Shown here one piece after another: positions 1,413-35,598 of a stretch of DNA of 38,445 nucleotides. The notes below the pieces were generated by a model that was not told the DNA's origin, searched no databases, and saw only the letters and a list, made by a program, of their open reading frames with translations. This DNA is from an uncultured Saprospiraceae bacterium (GTDB taxonomy: Bacteria; Bacteroidota; Bacteroidia; Chitinophagales; Saprospiraceae): the NCBI GenBank assembly GCA_937930815.1, contig CALHBQ010000264.1:1-38445 (forward strand). Direction: 5' to 3'. Position 1 is the first letter of the stretch, and each line of letters opens with the position of its first letter. The translations under genes were made by a program, and so were the position numbers.

Positions 1413-2939
1413 ATGACACGTATACACTGTTTTCTCATTTGCTTATTTACTTTTCTAATCTCTACGACTACTTTTTCTCAGAACTTTGATGAGACTTGGG
1501 CTGAATTTTTGGAGAACAACAAAATCTCCAATATGAGTCGTTTGCCTCGACCTGATGCTGTTACAGATCAGGTAAATTATGCAAAATACGCATTGATGAA
1601 TACCAACAACAAATTTTGCCAAAGTAAGATTGTTGATGCCGAAACCTATATGGAGGAACTCAAAACGCTCGACTCTGATGTTCGCGAATCGATTCCAGGT
1701 TTTACGCCTAAAATGGATGATTTAGAGAAAAAAATCGAAGCCTATCATACAATTGATCAGATTTGGAATCGCTTCTTGAAAAACAGAGATGTTACTGTTC
1801 ATGAGTTGGAAGAGGCATACCCACCAAGTTCTATTTGTGAGAAAAGAACCTTGGTAAAATACTCTTACATGACGGCTCATTATTACCTATGTGAAGGTGA
1901 TTTGGAGCGTTCAATCAATACCTTTGAGAACCGTACATTGAAGATTGCAGAGAAAACCACTTTACGTGTAAAAGATGTGAAAGGCATGTCAGCAGAGGTT
2001 AAAAACATGAAAACGCTCTACCGAAACATGTCAAAATTGGACGATGCGTGGGAAGAATATTTGGATACTGGCGTTTCTCTTGGTTTCAAACCAAAATTGC
2101 CACTATTTGATTGCTACCCTGTTCCAAATATAAAAGCATATATTTTACGTGGTGCGGTAGATATTTGTCGAATTGCCCCAGAGATGCTCGAAAAGATTGA
2201 AAAAATTCAAGACAAAACTGATGTTACGCTGGATAGAGAAATTCGCGAAAAGATTAGAGAATTGAGAGAAGATGTTGAAGAAAACGAAGAAACTGCCGCT
2301 CCATTAAATAAGGCGTGGAACGCTTTCGTAAAATCAGGCAAAGTGCCAAGTGTCGATTATGGTTACGAATATTGTAATACAGAATCATTGATTAGAGCCT
2401 ACATCATGGATGGGTACGCTTACCCGTGTAACTTCGGAGATGAGATGCTTACAAAAATTGATTCTTTGCGAAAAGCAGACCGTCCTCGATTGAAAAAAAG
2501 CACCGCTAAAAAAATCAATGAACTGATGGACTTGATTGAGGAGTACGAAGAAAACAGTGCTGACATTGATCAGATTTGGGAAAAATTCGTTGCGAATGGT
2601 GATAAATTGGTCAGTGATTATATTTCTACAGAGAATTATTGTGATAATATTCATCAAGTAAAAGATTGGACCATGAGAGGGCTGACCGCCGATTGTGAAG
2701 AGGCTATCCCCTATTTGAAGAAGATTGATAATTTTAAAGAAACATTCGATTTCGATTTTTATAAAGAATTGGATTGTCGAGTTCAAGCCTTAAGAATCAA
2801 GGTTTGGGAATGTAGGCATGCTGCATTAGAAGATTTAGCAAAGACCGAATTTCCAGATGCATATGAAGAAAGATTGACAGAATTGATGGAACAATATGAT
2901 ATGATTGAGCGACCAAGACTTCCGGATGGTTGTGAATAA
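1413..2939 (+). CDS. Secreted protein of five ~90-aa helical repeats with C-x17-C signature, 508 aa
   Basis: Signal peptide MTRIHCFLICLFTFLISTTTFSQ; repeated W-xx-(F/Y) openings at W29, W118, W213, W302, W389; Cys pairs C142/C160, C234/C252, C321/C339, C410/C428. Confidence 0.85.
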   Translation: MTRIHCFLICLFTFLISTTTFSQNFDETWAEFLENNKISNMSRLPRPDAVTDQVNYAKYALMNTNNKFCQSKIVDAETYMEELKTLDSDVRESIPGFTPKMDDLEKKIEAYHTIDQIWNRFLKNRDVTVHELEEAYPPSSICEKRTLVKYSYMTAHYYLCEGDLERSINTFENRTLKIAEKTTLRVKDVKGMSAEVKNMKTLYRNMSKLDDAWEEYLDTGVSLGFKPKLPLFDCYPVPNIKAYILRGAVDICRIAPEMLEKIEKIQDKTDVTLDREIREKIRELREDVEENEETAAPLNKAWNAFVKSGKVPSVDYGYEYCNTESLIRAYIMDGYAYPCNFGDEMLTKIDSLRKADRPRLKKSTAKKINELMDLIEEYEENSADIDQIWEKFVANGDKLVSDYISTENYCDNIHQVKDWTMRGLTADCEEAIPYLKKIDNFKETFDFDFYKELDCRVQALRIKVWECRHAALEDLAKTEFPDAYEERLTELMEQYDMIERPRLPDGCE

Positions 2940-23704: not shown

Positions 23705-25003
23705 ATGAAATTAAGATTAATAGTATTCTTATTGGTCTTTTCAATTATTAATGGTTTTAGCCAAATCAATCCTAAGGACTACCTTCCTAAAAATATTTTA
23801 AAAGAATTTGAAAAAACCGTCCTTAATGACTGGGGAGTTGATTCTATTTATTGTTATAAATACAATGAAACTGCTGGTGCAATTATTGAAAACCAGCGCA
23901 CCTACAATTTAGAATTAACTCCTAATGGACTGGTAGTCAAAGAATTAACTGAAATTTTCGAAAACGGAATTTGGGTAAATAATCGGTTATTAGAAAACGT
24001 TTATTTGCCGTCTGAAGAAATTGATATGCAGTTGATTAAAAATTGGAATACCTCCACAAATAATTGGCAAGGAGCTGAAAGAAGGACTTATCGATATAAT
24101 GCGAATAATTACTTAACCAGCTTATTGCTTGAAAGATTTAATCCTCAAACGGGTGCATGGGTCTTTGAAAGTCGAAATATTTATAAGTACTTCAATCTAT
24201 CTGAGCCAGATGAGTTTTTATTGCAAGAATGGGATGGAACAAACTGGGTAGATAAAGGCCAAATTTTCTATTCCTACAATTCTAATCTTCAAGTCACCTC
24301 TTCAATATTTAGATTATGGGACACTAATCAATGGGTCAATGCCAATCAGACATTTGAAACATATGACAATGATTTCAAACAAACTCGAACGGAAAGAGAA
24401 ACTTGGAATATTGCAGCACAAGATTGGGACAACTCAACAAGGGCGGCCTATTCATACAATCAAGAAAATACATTGGAACGAGTTACTAATGAGATTTGGG
24501 TTAATCAAGATAGTACTTGGACATTCACGGATGATAATATTTACCGTTACGATTTTAGAAAGAGAAATAATGAGTTAATTATTAGAAATTTCGATGGTGC
24601 TGATTTTTCAAATTATTATAGAAATAAAAGAACCTTTGATTTAAATGATAATATCAAAAAAGTCGAAAATCAATTTTACCAAGGTGGTTTTTGGGTGAAT
24701 GATAATTATTGTGACTTATTCTATTCAGAACTTCAAACATCTGATACAGAAGACATTACAAATAATAATTTATGCGGCATCACAAAAAGCAATAATTCAT
24801 TTTCGTTGGATTGTCCTGATTTATTAACAGGCAACAGTCCAATAATTTTTGAAATCCATGACCTATTAGGAAGATTGATTTTTTCAAAAAAAATCAATGC
24901 GATTGAAAAAATCACACCCGTCGTAAATGATGGATTGTATGTAATTTCCTTTCGGAAAAACCGGAAGAACCTCGCTTCTCAAAAAATTTACATTTCAAAA
25001 TAA
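23705..25003 (+). CDS. Secreted Trp/Tyr-rich repeat protein with T9SS-like C-terminus (paralog 1), 432 aa
   Basis: Signal peptide MKLRLIVFLLVFSIINGFSQ; ~40-aa W..(~10)..Y.Y(D/N) repeats; C-terminus IIFEIHDLLGRLIFSKKINA...VNDGLYVISFRKNRKNLASQKIYISK. Confidence 0.82.
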   Translation: MKLRLIVFLLVFSIINGFSQINPKDYLPKNILKEFEKTVLNDWGVDSIYCYKYNETAGAIIENQRTYNLELTPNGLVVKELTEIFENGIWVNNRLLENVYLPSEEIDMQLIKNWNTSTNNWQGAERRTYRYNANNYLTSLLLERFNPQTGAWVFESRNIYKYFNLSEPDEFLLQEWDGTNWVDKGQIFYSYNSNLQVTSSIFRLWDTNQWVNANQTFETYDNDFKQTRTERETWNIAAQDWDNSTRAAYSYNQENTLERVTNEIWVNQDSTWTFTDDNIYRYDFRKRNNELIIRNFDGADFSNYYRNKRTFDLNDNIKKVENQFYQGGFWVNDNYCDLFYSELQTSDTEDITNNNLCGITKSNNSFSLDCPDLLTGNSPIIFEIHDLLGRLIFSKKINAIEKITPVVNDGLYVISFRKNRKNLASQKIYISK

Positions 25004-25188: not shown

Positions 25189-26481
25189 ATGAAATTTTTA
25201 TTTTCTGCAACATTCCTACTTTTTCTTTCAACTGCAGTTTTTGGACAAGCTGCGTTAGATTTTTTACCAAGAACGATTCTTGAAGCGCACACCTCCCTAC
25301 TCCAGTCAGAATGGGTTACAGATTCAATTTACTGTTACAAAAAAGATAATAGTTCTAACGACTTGGTTTACGACTTTAGAGTTTACAATGAGCGTTTAAA
25401 CGATTTGGGAAGGGTCTTGGTTGAAGTTACTCAACGACACCAAAATGATCAGTGGATCAACTACCAAAGACAAAACAATTCATACAACAGTAAAGGGGAT
25501 TTAATTTCTAATACTATTCAGTTTTACGATCCTGAAGGTGGCGGTTGGATTAACGCTCAAAAAGCTGATTTCAGCTACAATATTAATGGATTTTTGACTA
25601 AGCTCGAACACTTTAATTTTACTGATAATACCTGGGAACGAAATTATCGAAACCAATATGTTTATTTCAATAATGTTGACCCAGATGAGTTTACGCAACA
25701 AGTGTTTGAAGGAGGATTTTGGAGAAACAAATTTAAGGTCTATTATTCTTTTGACGGAGCTGGGAAAATTACTTCTTCCTTTTTCACGACTTGGGATAAT
25801 AATCAAAATGATTGGGTAAATAATAATCGTACTTTCGAAACTTATGACCAGCAAGAAAGACCCATTCAAGTCAAAAGAGAAATTTGGAATTTGACTGAAT
25901 TATCATGGAATAATTCATCCAGAACAAACTGGATTTACAATCCTTCGACAGGTGACCCGAGAATCATTAATGAAAATTGGATTGTCCAAGATTCTGCTTG
26001 GGTAGCAGCTAACGATGTTCAAATTTTCTACGATAACAATGAACTTGAAACGGAGAGAATTGAACGAAATTATGATAACGGAATCTATACAAATTTCTTC
26101 CGTTCAAACAAAAAATATGATGAATTTGAAAACTTAAATAGAGTTGATAATGAGCTGTATATCAATGGCTTATGGGATTTAATCTCTTATTGTGAATACT
26201 TTTACACGAATAACACTTCGTCCACTGTTCCAGAAATTGATCAAACAAAAGCTTTGTGTAAAATTACAAATCCTATCAACGCTTCTACCGTCATCAGTTG
26301 CTCTTTACTAAATGAAAATGTTAGATTAAGAATCATGAATGCAGAAGGAAAAATTGTTTATGATCAACAAAAATCAGGACAGTTTTCAATCAATAAATCA
26401 TTTCCAAATGGAAGCTATTTTTTCACTTTTTCAAAAGGAAATAAATTGATTGAAACAAGAAAAATGATTTGGAAAAATTAA
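25189..26481 (+). CDS. Secreted Trp/Tyr-rich repeat protein with T9SS-like C-terminus (paralog 2), 430 aa
   Basis: Signal peptide MKFLFSATFLLFLSTAVFGQ; collinear with the 23705-25003 product (DSIYCYK, DPDEF vs EPDEF, WVNNNRTFETYD vs WVNANQTFETYD, REIWNL vs RETWNI). Confidence 0.82.
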   Translation: MKFLFSATFLLFLSTAVFGQAALDFLPRTILEAHTSLLQSEWVTDSIYCYKKDNSSNDLVYDFRVYNERLNDLGRVLVEVTQRHQNDQWINYQRQNNSYNSKGDLISNTIQFYDPEGGGWINAQKADFSYNINGFLTKLEHFNFTDNTWERNYRNQYVYFNNVDPDEFTQQVFEGGFWRNKFKVYYSFDGAGKITSSFFTTWDNNQNDWVNNNRTFETYDQQERPIQVKREIWNLTELSWNNSSRTNWIYNPSTGDPRIINENWIVQDSAWVAANDVQIFYDNNELETERIERNYDNGIYTNFFRSNKKYDEFENLNRVDNELYINGLWDLISYCEYFYTNNTSSTVPEIDQTKALCKITNPINASTVISCSLLNENVRLRIMNAEGKIVYDQQKSGQFSINKSFPNGSYFFTFSKGNKLIETRKMIWKN

Positions 26482-27923
26482 CCAACTTCTTCGATCTTTT
26501 TCTTTAGCCAATTTTTATAATAAATACTTTCAGCTTTTTCAAAATCGCGCTTTAATTTATCAATATCCTTTTGGAGTAAAACTTTACTAGTAAAGCCTTT
26601 CTTTGCTCGGATTTTGGCTAATCGCTTTGTTAGCTTAAATAGATTTGCATAGGCCAATTTTCGTGATGCAGCGAGAATGGTACTTCGTTTCAAAAACAAA
26701 CGAAATGAGTCCGTTAAAGAAAAAAGTGGTTCATCTTCGTTTAGGTCAAAATAGGTTTGCAACAATAGAACCTTTGCACCTAAACTATACCGTGGATCGG
26801 TATATTCAACTTGAAGCAAAAGTCCTAATACTTTTTCTAATTCACCAATATTGAAATAATAAGATGCCTTATTGAAACTATAGGCATTTTCTGCTCTATC
26901 TGGGTGTAATTTCAGTTTGTAATCTTCCATGAATTGTTCTACCCACTCTCTTTCATTAAGACGAGTACCTACCGTAATGATATTTTTGTAATACCATTCC
27001 CCTAAATACCCATTATCAAAAATAATTTCTCGATTAATTAAAATTTTGTACAGACTGAATATTTCATTCCAATATTCTTTTGCTCCTTTATTAATTTGAG
27101 AAGAACAGAAATTGGTGAGGTACGTGTAGAGGTTTATCTTTTCAAGAATAGTAAAAAGATGATCATGCTTAGTAATCATTTCCTTTGCTTCGGTATAACT
27201 TATTTTATCCCCTTTTTTAAATAGCCGATAAATATATATATACACTTTTAGCGAAGGGATTTCTGAATATTTATAAGCATTTTCTATCACTTCACTTATT
27301 GCAAAATTTTCAGAATCAAAGGAAATCTCTTTTTTCAAGGCTTTATTTCTTGCAATTTGTTCGATAACATCTCTCAATTTTTCTAATAAAAAAGCATACT
27401 CTAAAAAACTTTGCTTTTCATCATATTGCTCATTGTCCAGCAATTTTCCTTGGGAGCCAAAAAGCAATTCTCTTGATCTTAATTCATCTACCTTATTTTG
27501 CAAAAAATAAAGATCTCTCAAATCATTATTTTCATTTAGTTTATTTAAATGATCTAATTGTTTAGCTCCATGCCGAAATTGTTCCTTTTTACATAGGTAC
27601 TTATTGATAAAAATTTTATGTTTGCTCTCCTCTTCCTTAAAAATTTCATATGCCATGAAATTTTCAAGTTGACGCTTAGTATAGGTGAAAACCAGCGCTA
27701 ACTTCTTTTTATCCATCTTCCCTTTTCCATACATTTCTTTGTAAAGGGATTCTGGGTGACAAGTTTTTTCTGTAAAATTCGGATACAAATCACTGAGTAT
27801 AGACGTCAAGACTCTGACATCCTCATGTTTGTTAAAATATGGTGAATAAACAAATTCTTTAAAATAGGTCATCTCTTTTCTGGTAAAAGAGCGTAGAATC
27901 GAAATTAGAAAACTATTTTCCAT
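26478..27923 (-). CDS. Uncharacterised alpha-helical (TPR-like) protein, 481 aa
   Basis: Long ORF, Lys/Glu/Leu-rich: MENSFLISILRSFTRKEMTYFKEFVYSPYFNKHEDV...; no signal peptide. Stop overlaps convergent gene stop by 3 nt. Confidence 0.8.
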   Translation of the reverse strand: MENSFLISILRSFTRKEMTYFKEFVYSPYFNKHEDVRVLTSILSDLYPNFTEKTCHPESLYKEMYGKGKMDKKKLALVFTYTKRQLENFMAYEIFKEEESKHKIFINKYLCKKEQFRHGAKQLDHLNKLNENNDLRDLYFLQNKVDELRSRELLFGSQGKLLDNEQYDEKQSFLEYAFLLEKLRDVIEQIARNKALKKEISFDSENFAISEVIENAYKYSEIPSLKVYIYIYRLFKKGDKISYTEAKEMITKHDHLFTILEKINLYTYLTNFCSSQINKGAKEYWNEIFSLYKILINREIIFDNGYLGEWYYKNIITVGTRLNEREWVEQFMEDYKLKLHPDRAENAYSFNKASYYFNIGELEKVLGLLLQVEYTDPRYSLGAKVLLLQTYFDLNEDEPLFSLTDSFRLFLKRSTILAASRKLAYANLFKLTKRLAKIRAKKGFTSKVLLQKDIDKLKRDFEKAESIYYKNWLKKKIEEVG

Positions 27924-28037
27924 TATTTTTTCTCAACTTTTTAATTAAATAATTTACTCATAAACCGTTTATAATCAATAAGTTAACTAAATAAATTTTT
28001 ATTTTTTTGAGTATTTTTTCTCAAAAATAAATAAAAA

Positions 28038-28082
28038 TTGTTCTTTTTTCCATCTTAGATATACAGCACCTTTGTATTGTCC
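28038..28082 (+). promoter_or_regulatory. Putative promoter of giant repeat-protein gene, near-copy at 36203-36247
   Basis: TTGTTCTTTTTTCCATCTTAGATATACAGCACCTTTGTATTGTCC aligns ungapped to 36203-36247 with 35/45 identities; CACCTTTG resembles TAnnTTTG. Confidence 0.55.
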
Positions 28083-28170
28083 ACGAAATTATCCAAAACC
28101 CATATCTGTTATTTCACACTTTTCGTGTTTGGAAAAAAGGATTTAGTAACTTTTCAAAAAACACATTTGC

Positions 28171-31100
28171 ATGAACTATTTCTTGAAGCCAACAATAATA
28201 ATTGCCATTTTCCTCACGCTATTTGCAAACCCTCTTTTGGGCCAGCAAACAGGATGCTATACATTAGATAATTTTTTGTTAGGCAATAAGTTGGGCCAAA
28301 GTTTTTCAAGTTTACCAGGTGATTCGATTGGTAATGAGGCTGGTATGTACGTTACAGCCGAGTTATTCTATCTTGAAGACAACAACTTTGCCTTTGATAG
28401 CCTAACTGTGGTCAACGATGAAGTGCAGTCTGAATTTTATCATGGAATAAACAACCTACTCTCTTTAAGAAACATTACTGCCAAGTTTGATGTATTTGAC
28501 GCGCTTGGTGAAGCATATCATATTCAAATACATGGATATAATGAAGGCAATGGAGTAAACTTTGGCTTCAATGGCAATATTCCTCGATTTTATGAGAATT
28601 TTTCGGAGGTTCCTACATTTCTTTACCCAGGAGTTGAATTTGAGGCAATAGAAGTCCCCAATCCAAATGGCTCAGGAACATATTTTGTAATTTCTATTTT
28701 TAGTGACACCAACATCTATGAAGTAAGCATAGGTGGTGAAAATATACTTATTGATAATTTTTGCTTTGATCAAAATCCCAACGTAGATTGTAAAATCTAT
28801 AATCCCATGAACGTACCGGTGTGTGGCCCAGACAACAGTCTTTCGTTAGACTTGTATGTTAGCCATACACCGGCTAACGATCTTCTTGTAAATGTTTCCT
28901 TAAGTGGTATTCCTTTGGGCGTACGCACCCTTTCAAATAAAAAAATAGTACTTTCCAATCTCCAGCAATTGGGCAATCTTCCAGATATCTTAGAAGTTGT
29001 TTTGGAGGAAGTTGACGGAAATTGCACTTCAACTACTTTTATTAGAAAACCCGAATGCACAGGAACAAATCCTTTGGATCCTTGTCAAATTATTGATCCT
29101 TCATTTAGTTTTAGCTATTGCGACGCCAACGGTGATTTTTTGGCAAATCTAAATTTTGATACAACAGGTGTTACTGACTCCTTTCAACTTAGGATTCTTT
29201 CAAACTTCTTAGAAACTTATTCCTACAGTGATTTACCGATTACTATTCCATTTAATGATTCTATGGATTGGATTGATGTAAATACTGGTTTAAACTGGAT
29301 CGCAGAAATTACGGACATTGGAATAGATTCTTGCAGAACCTCCTTTAGAACCAATGATGTTTTGTTGTGTGGAAATGATTGCACATTTAGCAATTTTGTA
29401 GTAACAGATGTTTCTTGCAAAACTTCTTTAGATAGCTTCTTTCTATCTTTTAATTTCGATACCATACAGCCATTGAATGATAGTTTTGCAGTTATTGTTG
29501 ACCAAAATTTCATTGGTACATTTGGTTATGATCAATTGCCGATTCAGAACATGGCGATTGAGCATAGTGGTTACAATTTCCATTCACTAACTGTTTTTGA
29601 TTATACAGGAAGCGATATCCCAACGACCTGCCAAAATACAATCAACTTCCCTACCCTTTGTAGAGAATGTCCTGAAAACTTGACCGCAGGTATGATTTCG
29701 CCGCCAAACATTAGCGGACAATATACCTTCTTTGTGGACATGTATCGGCCAGCAAATGAACTAGGTCGTTTTGAATTATTTTATGATAATAACCTAATAG
29801 ATACTTTTTCTTATAGCCAATTGCCTCTCGGTCAAAACTTCAATTGTTTGGACTACAGCGATTCTTTAAAAATTAGTATAAAAGATATTGACAATGCAAA
29901 TTGTGAAGCCTCTACGCTTCTGCTAATCAACTGTGATTCAGTTTGTTATGTCCCAAATTACACTACTAACATTTTAAATTGTTCTACAACAAATTTTGAT
30001 TTAAACTTAGATTTTAATCCCACGAACAATCCCATTACTGTAAGAGTCTCAGTCAACGGAACAACGGTAGGAACCGGTTCCGTTGCTGGCTCTTTGACTT
30101 TTCAAAACATTCCACTTCAGACAGCGGGCAACTTAAACATTTTGGTTTGTGAAATTGGAAATCCAAACCCAGATTGCTGTGTTGAAGTTGAAATCCCAAA
30201 TCCATGTCCAATTCCTCAATGTGAGTTGGAAATCTTAAACGCGACGCCTTCTGCTTGCGATGCAGACGGTAATTTCATAATTGATCTGGAAGTTAGCGCT
30301 TCGAACCCAACAGGTTCTAATTTCGTCATTTTTGTAAATGGAAATTTACAAACTACTTCCAATTACAATCAAAATCTTCAGCAATTTCAATTAGGTCCTT
30401 TTGACGGAACAGTCACTACTCCATTTGAAATTGAAATATTCGATGTATTAAATAACGATTGTATAGCATCCTTAGACTTAAACAGTCCCAACTGCAAACC
30501 TACACCTTGTTCCATTTCCAGTATTGAAGCAGATATCACCAATTGTGTAGGTGATAATTTCAGTTTGGATATTGATTTTGAATATAATAATGTAAGCAGT
30601 TCATTTTTTACATTATTTGTTGAAGGTGAGGCTCAAGGCTTTAGGCCTTTTAATACAGTGCCTTTCAATATTTCAAATTTGACAAGTGATGGAGATGATG
30701 AAATAAGCGTACGTATTTGTGATTTAGAAGATAATGCTTGTTGCGCAACTATACTAATTCCAAATATTTGCAATGATTGTGAGATTCTTGATTTTCAAGT
30801 AACTCCACAAAGTTGTAATACAAATCAACGATTTAATTTTTTATTGACAAGTGAGATAAATGCTCTCCCAACTGATTCTTTTGATGTATTTGTTGATAGA
30901 CAATTATATACAAGTTTTGGATTTTTAGATTTACCAACCTTAAATTCAACTGGGTTGTTAATTGGTGATTTTGATGGAAGTATTTTAACTGGCTATACAA
31001 TTGGGATTGCCAGCAAAACATATAATTTCTGTTCAAAAGATACCACTTTACAGTACATATGCCCTCCTCCTCCATCTTGTGAATTGAGTAATCTAACAAT

Positions 31101-34100
31101 TACAGATTTACCTTGCGATGCGGATGGTAATTATTTAATTGACATTGATTTTGATAGAGCGAATACGCTTTCAGATTCTTTCAATTTATATCAAAATGGT
31201 TTAATCTACGGTACTTACCACTATGATGAATTATCATTGCAAATTGGTAGTTTTGAAGGAGATGGAAGTACTTTAAACTTTTTAGCTACAGATTTAATTG
31301 ATTCAGATTGTAGAATTACAAGTTCAATTACAGGGCCCCAATGTGTGCAACCTTGCGCAATGTCAAATTTAATATTGCAACCTACTCAATGTAATTCTGA
31401 TGGAACTTATAATTTAGTCTTAAATTTCATTGCAGCAAATCCGACTTCAGATAGATTTGAAGTTTATATTGATGGTAGTTTAAATGGAACTTACACTTAC
31501 GCAGATGATTTACCTTTACAAATAAATTCCTTACCTGGAAATGATTCAAATGTCGATATCGTAATCAGAGATATAGAGAATATTGATTGTCGAATAAGTG
31601 GTTTTTATCAATCACCTTTCTGCACTCTTCCGTGTTCGATTGAAAATTTTGTTGCAGAAGCTGAAGGATGTGATATAGATGGAAATTTCTTAATTAACAT
31701 TGATTTTGATTTATTAAATCCAGTTTCGGATTCATTTCAAATTTTCATCAATGGAGTCAATAATGGTATTTTTTTAAATGACAATACCTCGATTCAGATG
31801 GGCCCATTCCCAGGAAACCAGAGCACTTTAGATTTTGAAGTAATAGATGTTGGAGACCAAGATTGCTCCGCAACCACAACTTTAGTATCTCCTAACTGTG
31901 TGGTTCGTAGTTGTCAGCTTTGGGGATTTGATGCGACACTTCAAAATTGCGATGCAAATCAAGAATTCACGGCAACAATAGATTTCAACTACTTAGACGA
32001 AGGTTCTGGTTTTGAATTATTCGAAAATGGAATCTCAAAAGGTAATTTCAATTATGGTTCGCCGCTCAACGTTGGACCTTACCCTGCTGATGGTTCAACA
32101 ATTAATTTTGAAATCATTGATAATGAGGATACAAATTGCCGATTAACAGGTACAATTAAAAGTCCAGTTTGTAATCCACCGTGTGATTTATCAGGTTTAG
32201 AAATAAACGATACGAAATGTTTGGGAGATGGAAACTTCTCTTTTGAGTTGAAATTTGACAGGCAATTTGCATCTGATTCATTTAACCTTTCAGGGCCAAA
32301 TGGATTTCAGGCAACCTACTCATATTTGGAAATGCCAATTTTGGTCGGCCCTTTGAATGGCGACGGGACGACTTCCTATCCTTTCCAAATTACAGACCAG
32401 CTTTCCTCAAACTGTACGATTGCCTTTAGCATTTTTGCAGAAGATTGTGTTTGTGAAATTTCGAATTTAATTGCCTCAACCACAGCTTGTGATGCAAATC
32501 AAAAATATTCAATCAATTTAGATTTTGATGTAAAGAATTCAGGAACCTCTTTTCTATTAGAAGGAAATGGATTTTCACAACAATATGATTATCAAGATTT
32601 GTCTTTGATTTTTGGTTCATTTGATGGTAATGAAACAACAAACACCTACACGGTTACCGATGTTTCGCGTTCTGGATGTTCAGAAACTTTTGATATAACA
32701 GCTCCCCTTTGTGTAGAGCCATGCGTCCTTAGCGATGTTGAAATAACAGAAATCATTTGTGATAATCAGGGCAGCTTTACTGCAACAATTGATTTTACTC
32801 ACAACAATGATCTTTCTAGTGAATTTAGAATAGGCCAAGAAATTTTCACCTATTCTTCATTACCGATTACCATCGGACCATTCGTTGGTGATGGAACAAC
32901 AACTCAAAATCTTACTATAACCGATTTAACAGATCAGGCTTGTACACTGCCGCTTTTTATTCCTGCAAATTTCTGCGGAGCAAATTGTAGCATTACAAAC
33001 TTACAAGCACTTGTTTCAGCCTGTGACTCATCAGGCAATTTCAATCTCGACTTGCAATTTGACTTTGATAATACGAACCAAGCAGGTTTTCTGGCGACAG
33101 TGAACGGCATACCCGTTGGCACTTTCTCATATAATGTCCCTCAACCGATTTCTCTTGGCACTTTTCCAGGTGATAATGTTACGAATTATAACGTTGCTGT
33201 TTTTGACTTGGAATCTTCGCTATGTTTTTCCGCCGTTTCACTTCCGCCAGTAAACTGCTTGCCGTGTGAATTTACCGAATTAACCACTACCATTACTGAT
33301 TGTGATGCCAACGAAGATTTTTCTGTTTGGCTTAGATTTAAAGAACAAAATGGAAGTAGTAATGGGTTTACCATTACAGGTAACGGAGTTAATTATGGTT
33401 CTTATGCCTACTCAGATCTTCCACTAAATCTAGGTCCATTTGATGGAGACGGAACTTCAGTTTATGAATTTTTAATCAATGACATTGCTGATTCCGAATG
33501 TAACATTGAAACTTCCATAGGCCCAGTAGATTGTGAAATTGACAATTGCAAAATTTACGATGTTTCTTCCACGCCGACCGCATGTGATGCAAACGGAGAA
33601 TTCTTCGTAGATCTTCGATTAAAAAATGATGATCCTGGCAACGATGGTTTTTCTGTCCGAGGAAACGGAACTGTTTATGGCATTTTCAGCTATGGTGCGC
33701 TCCCGATTCGTTTGGGGCCATTTGTAGGTGACGGCAATACCGATTATGAATTCATTATTTCCGATGTAGAAAAAAGTGATTGCGTAAATTACACCACAAT
33801 CGGTTCGATAGATTGTAATATCACTGATTGTAGCATTACTGATTTGAATATTGAACTATTGGATTGTAATGGTGATGGCACTTACCAAGTTGAGGTTGAT
33901 TTCAAATATGAAAATGAAACCAATACAACATTTGACCTAAGTACAACTCGCGGACTATTTGGAACCTATAATTTATCTGATCTTCCATTGACAATTACGG
34001 ATTTTCCAATCAACGGAAATCCTTTCGATGCGATTAGAGTTTGTATGACTGATAGTCATATTTGCTGTGCTTCCTCATTTTTCCCTGCTCCTGATTGTGA

Positions 34101-35598
34101 TGGCGCATGTATAGAGTTTGAGTTATTGTCAGCAGGGATGATATTTGATTCGATATCTGAAACTGTAATAGTTGAGAATGACGTTTTAGTCCAAACCAAT
34201 TCATTGTTTACTGGGACATCGGTAATGAATTATGATTCTGTCATAGTAGAAGAAGCGAATCAATTTTTTGATGCATCAATTGGTCTTCAAATTACGACGT
34301 TAAACGCAACGGTCGATTTTGATTTTCCTAATTTCCCAGGTGTGCCATGTAGAGAAGTAACCTTAAATTATTACCAATCTGGTAACCTAAACAACATAAG
34401 TGTCAACGATCAACCAATACAGATTTTTACAAATTTTGAGGACATTCCATACACTATTGGAAATGGAGTCAATGTAGAAGTGTTCCCAGTCAATAGCCGA
34501 GAAGGAAGTATAAAGCTTAAAGGGTTTATTAGACAATTAAAGATTGGAGGTTCAAATTTAAGTATTGACAATATCTGTTACAACGAGTGCCAAAACTTAA
34601 CAAGCGTTTGGCCTGGTGATATCAATACGGATAATTTAGTGAGTAATCTTGATATACTCAATTTAGGTGTTGCTTTTGGGGCTGTCGGACCAATGCGAGA
34701 TGAATTCAATGTAAATTGGGAAGAATTATCAAGTGAAGATTGGCTTAGAAATTTTGGTCGAGGAGTCAATTTCAAACATAGTGATTGTAACGGTGATGGT
34801 ATCATTGATAAAAATGATTTGGAGGTCATGGAAGCCAATTATGGTTTATCCAATGATCCAATTCTAACTTTTCCACCAGAAATTCCACCGCCAACAGCTC
34901 CAAGAATTTATATTGAATATCCAGATCCAAGTACAATTGAACCGAATGTTCCATTTACAATGAATGTGATGTTGGCCGAAGAATCTAACCCAATATTCAA
35001 CTTGTATGGTTTAGCATTTAATCTGCGATACGACAATACTTCGATCCAAATCTTACAAGATGTTACATACCCTCCAAGCTGGTACGGAGATCAAAATAAT
35101 GACTTAGTTACGATTGATAAAGTTTTCAATAGCGCAGGTGTTGCAAACATTGGCATGACGCGTATCAATCAAGAAAATGTAACAGGCTATGGTATGATTG
35201 CCCAAATTGATGGGATTATCATTGTGGAAGATATCGTACAACGCCAAGGAAGGATAGACATCGAGATAGATGGTATTGCTTCTATTTCAAAAGATGAATT
35301 ATCGGTGCCAATTAATGGGACAGTGAGTACGCTTGGATTTGAACCTTCGAGCACAATTCAAACTTTTGACGGAAGTCTTGAAGTTTTTCCAAATCCAACA
35401 AATGACAAATTCTATTTTGAAATAGATAATGAACAAAAAATTGATTTGATAGAAATTTTATCCGCAGATGGAAAGGTCTTGCAATCGCTCATCCCAAAGG
35501 CGAACTATGTTTCTCTTGACCAACATCTGCCAGGCATTTATATTGTCAAATTTGTTATTGATGGCAACCAATATTATGATAAGGTTGTAAAACAATAG
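28171..35598 (+). CDS. Giant secreted protein: 19 tandem four-cysteine repeats, paired flanking domains, dockerin-like and cohesin-like modules, T9SS type A sorting domain, 2475 aa
   Basis: Signal peptide MNYFLKPTIIIAIFLTLFANPLLGQ; repeats with C-x11-C ... C-x10-C; dockerin-like GDINTDNLVSNLDILNLGVAFG...DCNGDGIIDKNDLEVMEANYG; C-terminal LEVFPNPTNDKFYFEI...GIYIVKFVIDGNQYYDKVVKQ. Confidence 0.9.
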   Translation: MNYFLKPTIIIAIFLTLFANPLLGQQTGCYTLDNFLLGNKLGQSFSSLPGDSIGNEAGMYVTAELFYLEDNNFAFDSLTVVNDEVQSEFYHGINNLLSLRNITAKFDVFDALGEAYHIQIHGYNEGNGVNFGFNGNIPRFYENFSEVPTFLYPGVEFEAIEVPNPNGSGTYFVISIFSDTNIYEVSIGGENILIDNFCFDQNPNVDCKIYNPMNVPVCGPDNSLSLDLYVSHTPANDLLVNVSLSGIPLGVRTLSNKKIVLSNLQQLGNLPDILEVVLEEVDGNCTSTTFIRKPECTGTNPLDPCQIIDPSFSFSYCDANGDFLANLNFDTTGVTDSFQLRILSNFLETYSYSDLPITIPFNDSMDWIDVNTGLNWIAEITDIGIDSCRTSFRTNDVLLCGNDCTFSNFVVTDVSCKTSLDSFFLSFNFDTIQPLNDSFAVIVDQNFIGTFGYDQLPIQNMAIEHSGYNFHSLTVFDYTGSDIPTTCQNTINFPTLCRECPENLTAGMISPPNISGQYTFFVDMYRPANELGRFELFYDNNLIDTFSYSQLPLGQNFNCLDYSDSLKISIKDIDNANCEASTLLLINCDSVCYVPNYTTNILNCSTTNFDLNLDFNPTNNPITVRVSVNGTTVGTGSVAGSLTFQNIPLQTAGNLNILVCEIGNPNPDCCVEVEIPNPCPIPQCELEILNATPSACDADGNFIIDLEVSASNPTGSNFVIFVNGNLQTTSNYNQNLQQFQLGPFDGTVTTPFEIEIFDVLNNDCIASLDLNSPNCKPTPCSISSIEADITNCVGDNFSLDIDFEYNNVSSSFFTLFVEGEAQGFRPFNTVPFNISNLTSDGDDEISVRICDLEDNACCATILIPNICNDCEILDFQVTPQSCNTNQRFNFLLTSEINALPTDSFDVFVDRQLYTSFGFLDLPTLNSTGLLIGDFDGSILTGYTIGIASKTYNFCSKDTTLQYICPPPPSCELSNLTITDLPCDADGNYLIDIDFDRANTLSDSFNLYQNGLIYGTYHYDELSLQIGSFEGDGSTLNFLATDLIDSDCRITSSITGPQCVQPCAMSNLILQPTQCNSDGTYNLVLNFIAANPTSDRFEVYIDGSLNGTYTYADDLPLQINSLPGNDSNVDIVIRDIENIDCRISGFYQSPFCTLPCSIENFVAEAEGCDIDGNFLINIDFDLLNPVSDSFQIFINGVNNGIFLNDNTSIQMGPFPGNQSTLDFEVIDVGDQDCSATTTLVSPNCVVRSCQLWGFDATLQNCDANQEFTATIDFNYLDEGSGFELFENGISKGNFNYGSPLNVGPYPADGSTINFEIIDNEDTNCRLTGTIKSPVCNPPCDLSGLEINDTKCLGDGNFSFELKFDRQFASDSFNLSGPNGFQATYSYLEMPILVGPLNGDGTTSYPFQITDQLSSNCTIAFSIFAEDCVCEISNLIASTTACDANQKYSINLDFDVKNSGTSFLLEGNGFSQQYDYQDLSLIFGSFDGNETTNTYTVTDVSRSGCSETFDITAPLCVEPCVLSDVEITEIICDNQGSFTATIDFTHNNDLSSEFRIGQEIFTYSSLPITIGPFVGDGTTTQNLTITDLTDQACTLPLFIPANFCGANCSITNLQALVSACDSSGNFNLDLQFDFDNTNQAGFLATVNGIPVGTFSYNVPQPISLGTFPGDNVTNYNVAVFDLESSLCFSAVSLPPVNCLPCEFTELTTTITDCDANEDFSVWLRFKEQNGSSNGFTITGNGVNYGSYAYSDLPLNLGPFDGDGTSVYEFLINDIADSECNIETSIGPVDCEIDNCKIYDVSSTPTACDANGEFFVDLRLKNDDPGNDGFSVRGNGTVYGIFSYGALPIRLGPFVGDGNTDYEFIISDVEKSDCVNYTTIGSIDCNITDCSITDLNIELLDCNGDGTYQVEVDFKYENETNTTFDLSTTRGLFGTYNLSDLPLTITDFPINGNPFDAIRVCMTDSHICCASSFFPAPDCDGACIEFELLSAGMIFDSISETVIVENDVLVQTNSLFTGTSVMNYDSVIVEEANQFFDASIGLQITTLNATVDFDFPNFPGVPCREVTLNYYQSGNLNNISVNDQPIQIFTNFEDIPYTIGNGVNVEVFPVNSREGSIKLKGFIRQLKIGGSNLSIDNICYNECQNLTSVWPGDINTDNLVSNLDILNLGVAFGAVGPMRDEFNVNWEELSSEDWLRNFGRGVNFKHSDCNGDGIIDKNDLEVMEANYGLSNDPILTFPPEIPPPTAPRIYIEYPDPSTIEPNVPFTMNVMLAEESNPIFNLYGLAFNLRYDNTSIQILQDVTYPPSWYGDQNNDLVTIDKVFNSAGVANIGMTRINQENVTGYGMIAQIDGIIIVEDIVQRQGRIDIEIDGIASISKDELSVPINGTVSTLGFEPSSTIQTFDGSLEVFPNPTNDKFYFEIDNEQKIDLIEILSADGKVLQSLIPKANYVSLDQHLPGIYIVKFVIDGNQYYDKVVKQ
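28789..34098 (+). repeat. Protein-level tandem repeat array (19 units of ~85-95 aa) within the giant CDS
   Basis: Units such as CELSNLTITDLPCDADGNYLIDIDFDRANTLSDSFNLYQNGLIYGTYHYDELSLQIGSFEGDGSTLNFLATDLIDSDCRITSSITGPQC recur head to tail. Confidence 0.9.

Follow-up and report, generated by a model that had tools for sequence, protein, structure and literature searches.

The window, a 38,445-nucleotide stretch of DNA from an uncultured Saprospiraceae bacterium, carries at positions 28171 to 35598 (+ strand) an open reading frame that translates, with no internal stop, into a protein of 2475 amino acids with 89 cysteines. Its domain order comprises a signal peptide-like N-terminus (MNYFLKPTIIIAIFLTLFANPLLG, 28171–28242, read directly from the translation), a cap domain named JR1 (aa 29–205, 28255–28785), an array of 19 units (aa 207–1979, 28789–34107), a second cap domain named JR2 (aa 1980–2140, 34108–34590), a pair of dockerin-like EF-hand loops (aa 2142–2235, 34594–34875), a predicted cohesin-fold domain (aa 2236–2400, 34876–35370) and a T9SS type A C-terminal sorting domain followed by the stop codon (35383–35598), all on the + strand. 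A preliminary description had assigned these coordinates to a giant secreted repeat protein; the repeats are present, but the coordinates also cover five further domains outside the array. Secretion, as proposed there, is supported by both termini, the signal peptide-like start and a C-terminal match to TIGR04183 that scores 35.4 bits against a curated cut-off of 23. On the opposite strand (26478–27923, −), a gene encoding a 481-aa TPR-like helical protein runs divergently from the array gene, and the two share an intergenic region of 247 bp (27924–28170).

The 19 units, each of 88–100 residues, follow one another head-to-tail and uninterrupted through linkers of 1–5 residues (8 after unit 1), with a mean pairwise identity of 25%. 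Leave-one-out profiles, each built from the other 18 units, recovered all 19 with scores between 16.6 bits (unit 1, the weakest) and 96.8 bits, and the array is not a product of chance because every withheld unit outscored the best of 2000 shuffled units (10.4 bits). The earlier count of 19 units between 28789 and 34098 is thus borne out, except that the array ends at 34107, with 34098 marking its last cysteine. Canonical cysteines occupy unit positions 1, 13, 79 and 90 (hereafter Cys1, Cys13, Cys79 and Cys90). The array contains 82 cysteines, not the roughly 76 first estimated, and in the C-x11-C / C-x10-C pattern proposed for it the second spacing ranges from x9 to x11 and unit 4 (29668–29943, +) lacks the second cysteine, Cys13, and carries Cys61 in its place (aa 559). 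Units 5, 7 and 19 (29944–30219, 30508–30777 and 33829–34107, all +) are CC variants in which an additional cysteine, absent from the preliminary description, lies 8–10 residues upstream (aa 660, 850 and 1958) and probably pairs with the extra cysteine at aa 670, 858 and 1966, giving a third pair, Cys72 and Cys80.

Whether the query was the whole protein, a single unit or a profile, sequence searches of Pfam, NCBIfam and the PDB returned no convincing family for the unit, and no named Saprospiraceae repeat turned up in the literature searched. Among 122 unit triplets from the window and its relatives, no Pfam immunoglobulin, HYR or BIg family was matched, and the scattered weak matches were to other families. 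Across all these searches the weak hits, to STIV turret, BetaGal_ABD2, Colicin_M and His_Phos, were discarded because they fell below the cut-off or were confined to a handful of members, and disagreed with one another. The unit profile matched 30 of 61 related genomes, nearly all of Saprospiraceae and the remaining few from two further families of the same order, and 4 of 297 genomes in a phylum-wide sample, all of Saprospiraceae, which makes the unit a lineage-restricted family. Within its own genome, a 4.8 Mb draft, the array is present once, with three single weak unit matches elsewhere.

Scanning with the whole protein found just one close relative, from another uncultured Saprospiraceae bacterium (L033, 94% identical), and full-length orthologues occur in the genomes G001 (2475 aa, 19 units) and G003 (about 2625 aa, 20 units). 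Best matches fell in the same position for 18 of the 19 units in G001 and for most units in G003, which carries one extra unit around unit 13. In all three proteins the unit-4 variant keeps its place, as do the CC unit in fifth position and the one that closes the array. Unit order collinear between species rules out a recent tandem expansion, and the array, judged by this comparison, is old and stable. In other genera, some arrays are devoid of the caps and the dockerin-cohesin block and consist of units plus a C-terminal tail. Arrays of other genera (L051, L057 and L048) show an almost regular alternation of plain units with CC (or Cys63/Cys89–91) units, for example aBaBaBaBaB, which suggests a two-unit repeat.

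An AlphaFold2 model of units 17–19, computed from the alignment of the 122 triplets, reached a mean pLDDT of 89.6 with seven strands in each unit, in agreement with the beta-rich unit predicted earlier; its pTM was only 0.40, so the orientation from bead to bead is not fixed by the model. Foldseek comparison with the PDB retrieved phage Hoc, Aureispira GhpA, the giant adhesin SiiE, MDGA1 and CD45 at E values of 1e-6 to 1e-4, the top matches being to immunoglobulin-like chains (E about 1e-6, probability 1.0). By this model the unit is a seven-strand immunoglobulin-like sandwich, an ordinary fold whose sequences form a separate family, and the earlier remark that no named family was recognised for the unit holds for its sequence (unit profiles against Pfam, NCBIfam and the PDB), the predicted fold being a common one. 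The unit is a real, well-defined and undescribed domain family of known fold, in the environmentally abundant, little-studied Saprospiraceae.

In the model, strands A and G are bounded by the four canonical cysteines, with Cys1 and Cys79 preceding and Cys13 and Cys90 following these strands, while Cys61 and Cys63 come after the strand before F, and Cys72 and Cys80 flank the F-G turn. Given seven alternating strands with A and G parallel, Cys1, Cys72, Cys79 and Cys80 would gather at one end of the sandwich and Cys13, Cys61, Cys63 and Cys89–91 at the other. We aligned 222 units to the profile, 201 of them gap-free at the four main positions, and 193 of these 201 had all four cysteines. Cys80 was present in 58 of the 60 units with Cys72 (Fisher p 1e-49, a nominal value that overstates independence among related units), Cys63 was accompanied by a cysteine at 89 or 91 in 13 of 13 units, and Cys61 occurred only where Cys13 had been lost (8 of 8 units with both positions aligned). 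The simplest pairing would join Cys1 to Cys79 and Cys13 to Cys90, tying strand A to strand G at both ends, with Cys61 apparently able to replace Cys13 as disulfide partner in units of the unit-4 type. The CC units look like carriers of a third disulfide, Cys72–Cys80, across the F-G hairpin. Cysteine covariation and predicted fold thus both favour the disulfide-stapled unit put forward in the preliminary description, with the bonds themselves deduced from these patterns. Of the two meanings it had offered for the CC variant, a second unit type, probably with one more disulfide, looks right, and an alternative cysteine pairing is rejected.

Taking these observations together, we consider it probable that the protein is a mechanical stalk or adhesin with disulfide-clamped beads, exported by the T9SS and anchored in the outer membrane. 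The signal peptide would direct the chain to the periplasm, and the type A sorting domain would carry it over the outer membrane; there, on the model of Porphyromonas gingivalis, it may be trimmed and become attached to A-LPS. Beside this anchor would come the dockerin-like and cohesin domains, the 19 units would be immunoglobulin-like beads on a string, and the cap at the N-terminus, a candidate binder, would be the distal and presumed binding end; assuming roughly 4 nm per bead, a typical size, the 19 beads would reach about 75 nm. Within each bead, Cys1–Cys79 and Cys13–Cys90 would join the parallel first and last strands, A and G, at both ends, so that a pulling force might enter and leave via two covalently joined edge strands, bypassing the rest of the domain, and we propose that a bead with such a force path could not be unzipped. 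Nearly all of the 19 beads would have these two locks, and CC units would add the third bond across the F-G hairpin. Saprospiraceae are common in wastewater and some of them live as epiphytes on other bacteria (PMC9304909), a way of life with which an adhesion tether would fit.

Clamps of this kind have precedents in other stalks. First-to-last-strand bonds make stalk domains inextensible, as with the isopeptide of Spy0128 and the ester of Cpe0147, and Cpe0147 has also been given an engineered disulfide as such a lock (PMC8382745). Spy0128, the Cna B repeats and Cpe0147 of Gram-positive pili and adhesins are tandem immunoglobulin-like beads with covalently joined first and last strands (PMC8382745), whereas the window protein would have a disulfide at either end of each bead and would be exported by the T9SS of a Gram-negative bacterium; no sequence relation to the isopeptide- or ester-locked stalk domains was found. 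In the extenders of RTX adhesins, calcium between the parallel terminal strands raises strength, and MpAFP and MhLap, whose beta-sandwiches of about 100 aa also form long strings, have their parallel terminal strands clamped in this way (PMC5380327), with the difference that the window protein would use disulfides in place of calcium and the T9SS in place of type I secretion. Surface adhesins of the SprB/RemA type are likewise large proteins exported by the T9SS; the tail of the window protein is of type A, and it is type B tails that bind PorP/SprF (PMC11205867).

The same cysteines could instead pair between neighbouring units or chains, yielding a covalent polymer or sheath, that is, a cross-linked filament or matrix. 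Inter-unit bonds are sterically thinkable, as Cys90 and Cys1 of the next unit are mostly 1–5 residues apart, and the adjacent dockerin and cohesin could link molecules head to tail. However, the losses and gains of cysteines are compensated within one unit (Cys13/Cys61, Cys72/Cys80 and Cys63/Cys89–91), the four cysteines are kept in first, last and isolated units, such as a lone unit at aa 1168–1256 of a protein of the genome G036, and the even number of cysteines per unit speaks against free inter-chain thiols, so that we regard the cross-linked form as unlikely. The beta-rich and probably stapled parts of the "disulfide-stapled beta-rich filament" first suggested can be kept, but for the filament itself a monomeric anchored stalk is at least as good a fit.

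JR1 and JR2 are homologous to each other (blastp, E 2.6e-8, 26.6% identity), JR1 ends in the motif IGGxNxxIDNxC, and relatives carry further cap copies interleaved among their units; of the 23 copies in the window and its relatives, 22 had no Pfam match, and no significant PDB match was obtained for the caps. The dockerin-like region has two D-x-N-x-D loops, GDINTDNLVSNLD and SDCNGDGIIDKND, which are putative calcium loops of dockerin type separated by a long, conserved insert, and its profile matches the type II dockerin 2y3n_B at 5.9e-5. Pfam Dockerin_1 matches five of 15 relatives, with 7.6e-5 as the best value, but not the window protein itself. For aa 2236–2400 the predicted structure is that of a cohesin, with target-normalised Foldseek TM scores of 0.78–0.79 to 2jh2 and 5nrm_A, and weak matches to Pfam Cohesin (0.0013) appear in 3 of the 15 relatives. 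The same fixed block, dockerin and cohesin directly followed by the T9SS tail, closes two further proteins of this genome that otherwise differ, encoded on contigs C331 and C310, and a third, cut by the end of contig C296, shows cohesin and tail.

The predicted cohesin fold and the dockerin-like EF hands recall cellulosomal scaffoldins, and the protein might be a cellulosome-like scaffold whose dockerin and cohesin recruit other secreted proteins, with the array a mere spacer. In favour of this are the fit of the cohesin fold, the dockerin-like loops and the recurrence of the dockerin-cohesin-tail end in the same genome. Unlike scaffoldins, the window protein has both domains in one chain beside a T9SS anchor, and no catalytic domain, other enzyme module or carbohydrate-binding module was found in it. 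An internal clamp or spacer is favoured over recruitment because dockerin and cohesin stand together in one chain just before the anchor in every intact copy that was read, and we judge the scaffold to be quite improbable.

Aureispira belongs to the same family, Saprospiraceae, and the GhpA chains 9flw and 9flp, which are among the top structural matches, raised the possibility of a predatory grappling hook component for catching prey. GhpA, from this related genus, is also large and has immunoglobulin-like domains, and ixotrophy connects hooks with the T9SS (PMC11205867). The match is structural and a sequence relation is undetectable: neither the unit profiles, searched to E 10, nor the whole protein, searched to E 1, matched any GhpA chain in the PDB, which rejects homology by sequence, and many unrelated immunoglobulin-like strings score about equally well. 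A hook role for the window protein is very doubtful. Finally, four conserved cysteines per unit in a C-x11-C / C-x10-C layout might recall a zinc-type metal site rather than disulfides, which we dismiss as highly improbable, since the protein is predicted to be exported, its extra cysteines come in pairs, and cysteines at opposite ends of the predicted sandwich could not meet in one metal site.

Besides the array, the locus has a second conserved element. The TPR-like gene adjoins the array gene, always divergently, in nine genomes, namely its own and eight others (G001, G003, G035, G028, G006, G019, G036 and G034). A profile of its protein matches consensus TPR proteins at 1.6e-9, and no convincing named family was found for the protein. 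Its own genome encodes this protein or a relative at 18 places, and 13 of these copies have a 5′ flank that could be read directly: nine face a large T9SS-tailed ORF (contigs C264, C331, C310, C284, C319, C308, C382, C486 and C491), one (C447) lies downstream of a large T9SS-tailed gene on the same strand, and three (C493, C72 and C255) have other neighbours, two of them facing regulator-like genes. This genome has a large secreted repertoire, with at least 150 T9SS tails above the cut-off (the best 150 were scored) in 4.8 Mb, from which the chance expectation is that just a few percent of genes carry such a tail. Both other intact dockerin-cohesin genes of the genome belong to divergent pairs of this kind, and in G036, a genome of a second genus with 90 T9SS tails, coordinates place four of five TPR-like copies in the divergent arrangement.

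Outside the array itself, no lead is more promising than the TPR-like partner family, whose pairing with T9SS cargo provides a testable handle on the control or export of the many large surface proteins of these bacteria. We tentatively extend the stalk reading in two directions at once, a combination that is possible, though less than an even bet: the array would be a disulfide double clamp of natural origin, an independent chemical route to an inextensible adhesin stalk, and the protein would be one of the cargoes of a two-gene system spread across the family, with every giant T9SS surface protein encoded divergently from a TPR-like partner of its own, be it a regulator, a chaperone or a secretion adaptor. 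If the clamp reading is right, disulfides would join isopeptide, ester and calcium clamps as means to non-stretching adhesin stalks, and about 220 natural units would show which extra bonds are tolerated.

Elsewhere in the window, positions 1413–2939 (+) encode a secreted-looking helical protein of 508 aa with about five repeats starting [LI]DxxWxx[FY], for which no convincing family was found. Just before the divergent pair, 23705–25003 and 25189–26481 (both +) encode two similar secreted proteins of 430 aa with repeated aromatic/Asn motifs, the second of which has a weak T9SS tail; both are conserved in G001, at 50% and 43% identity, respectively.
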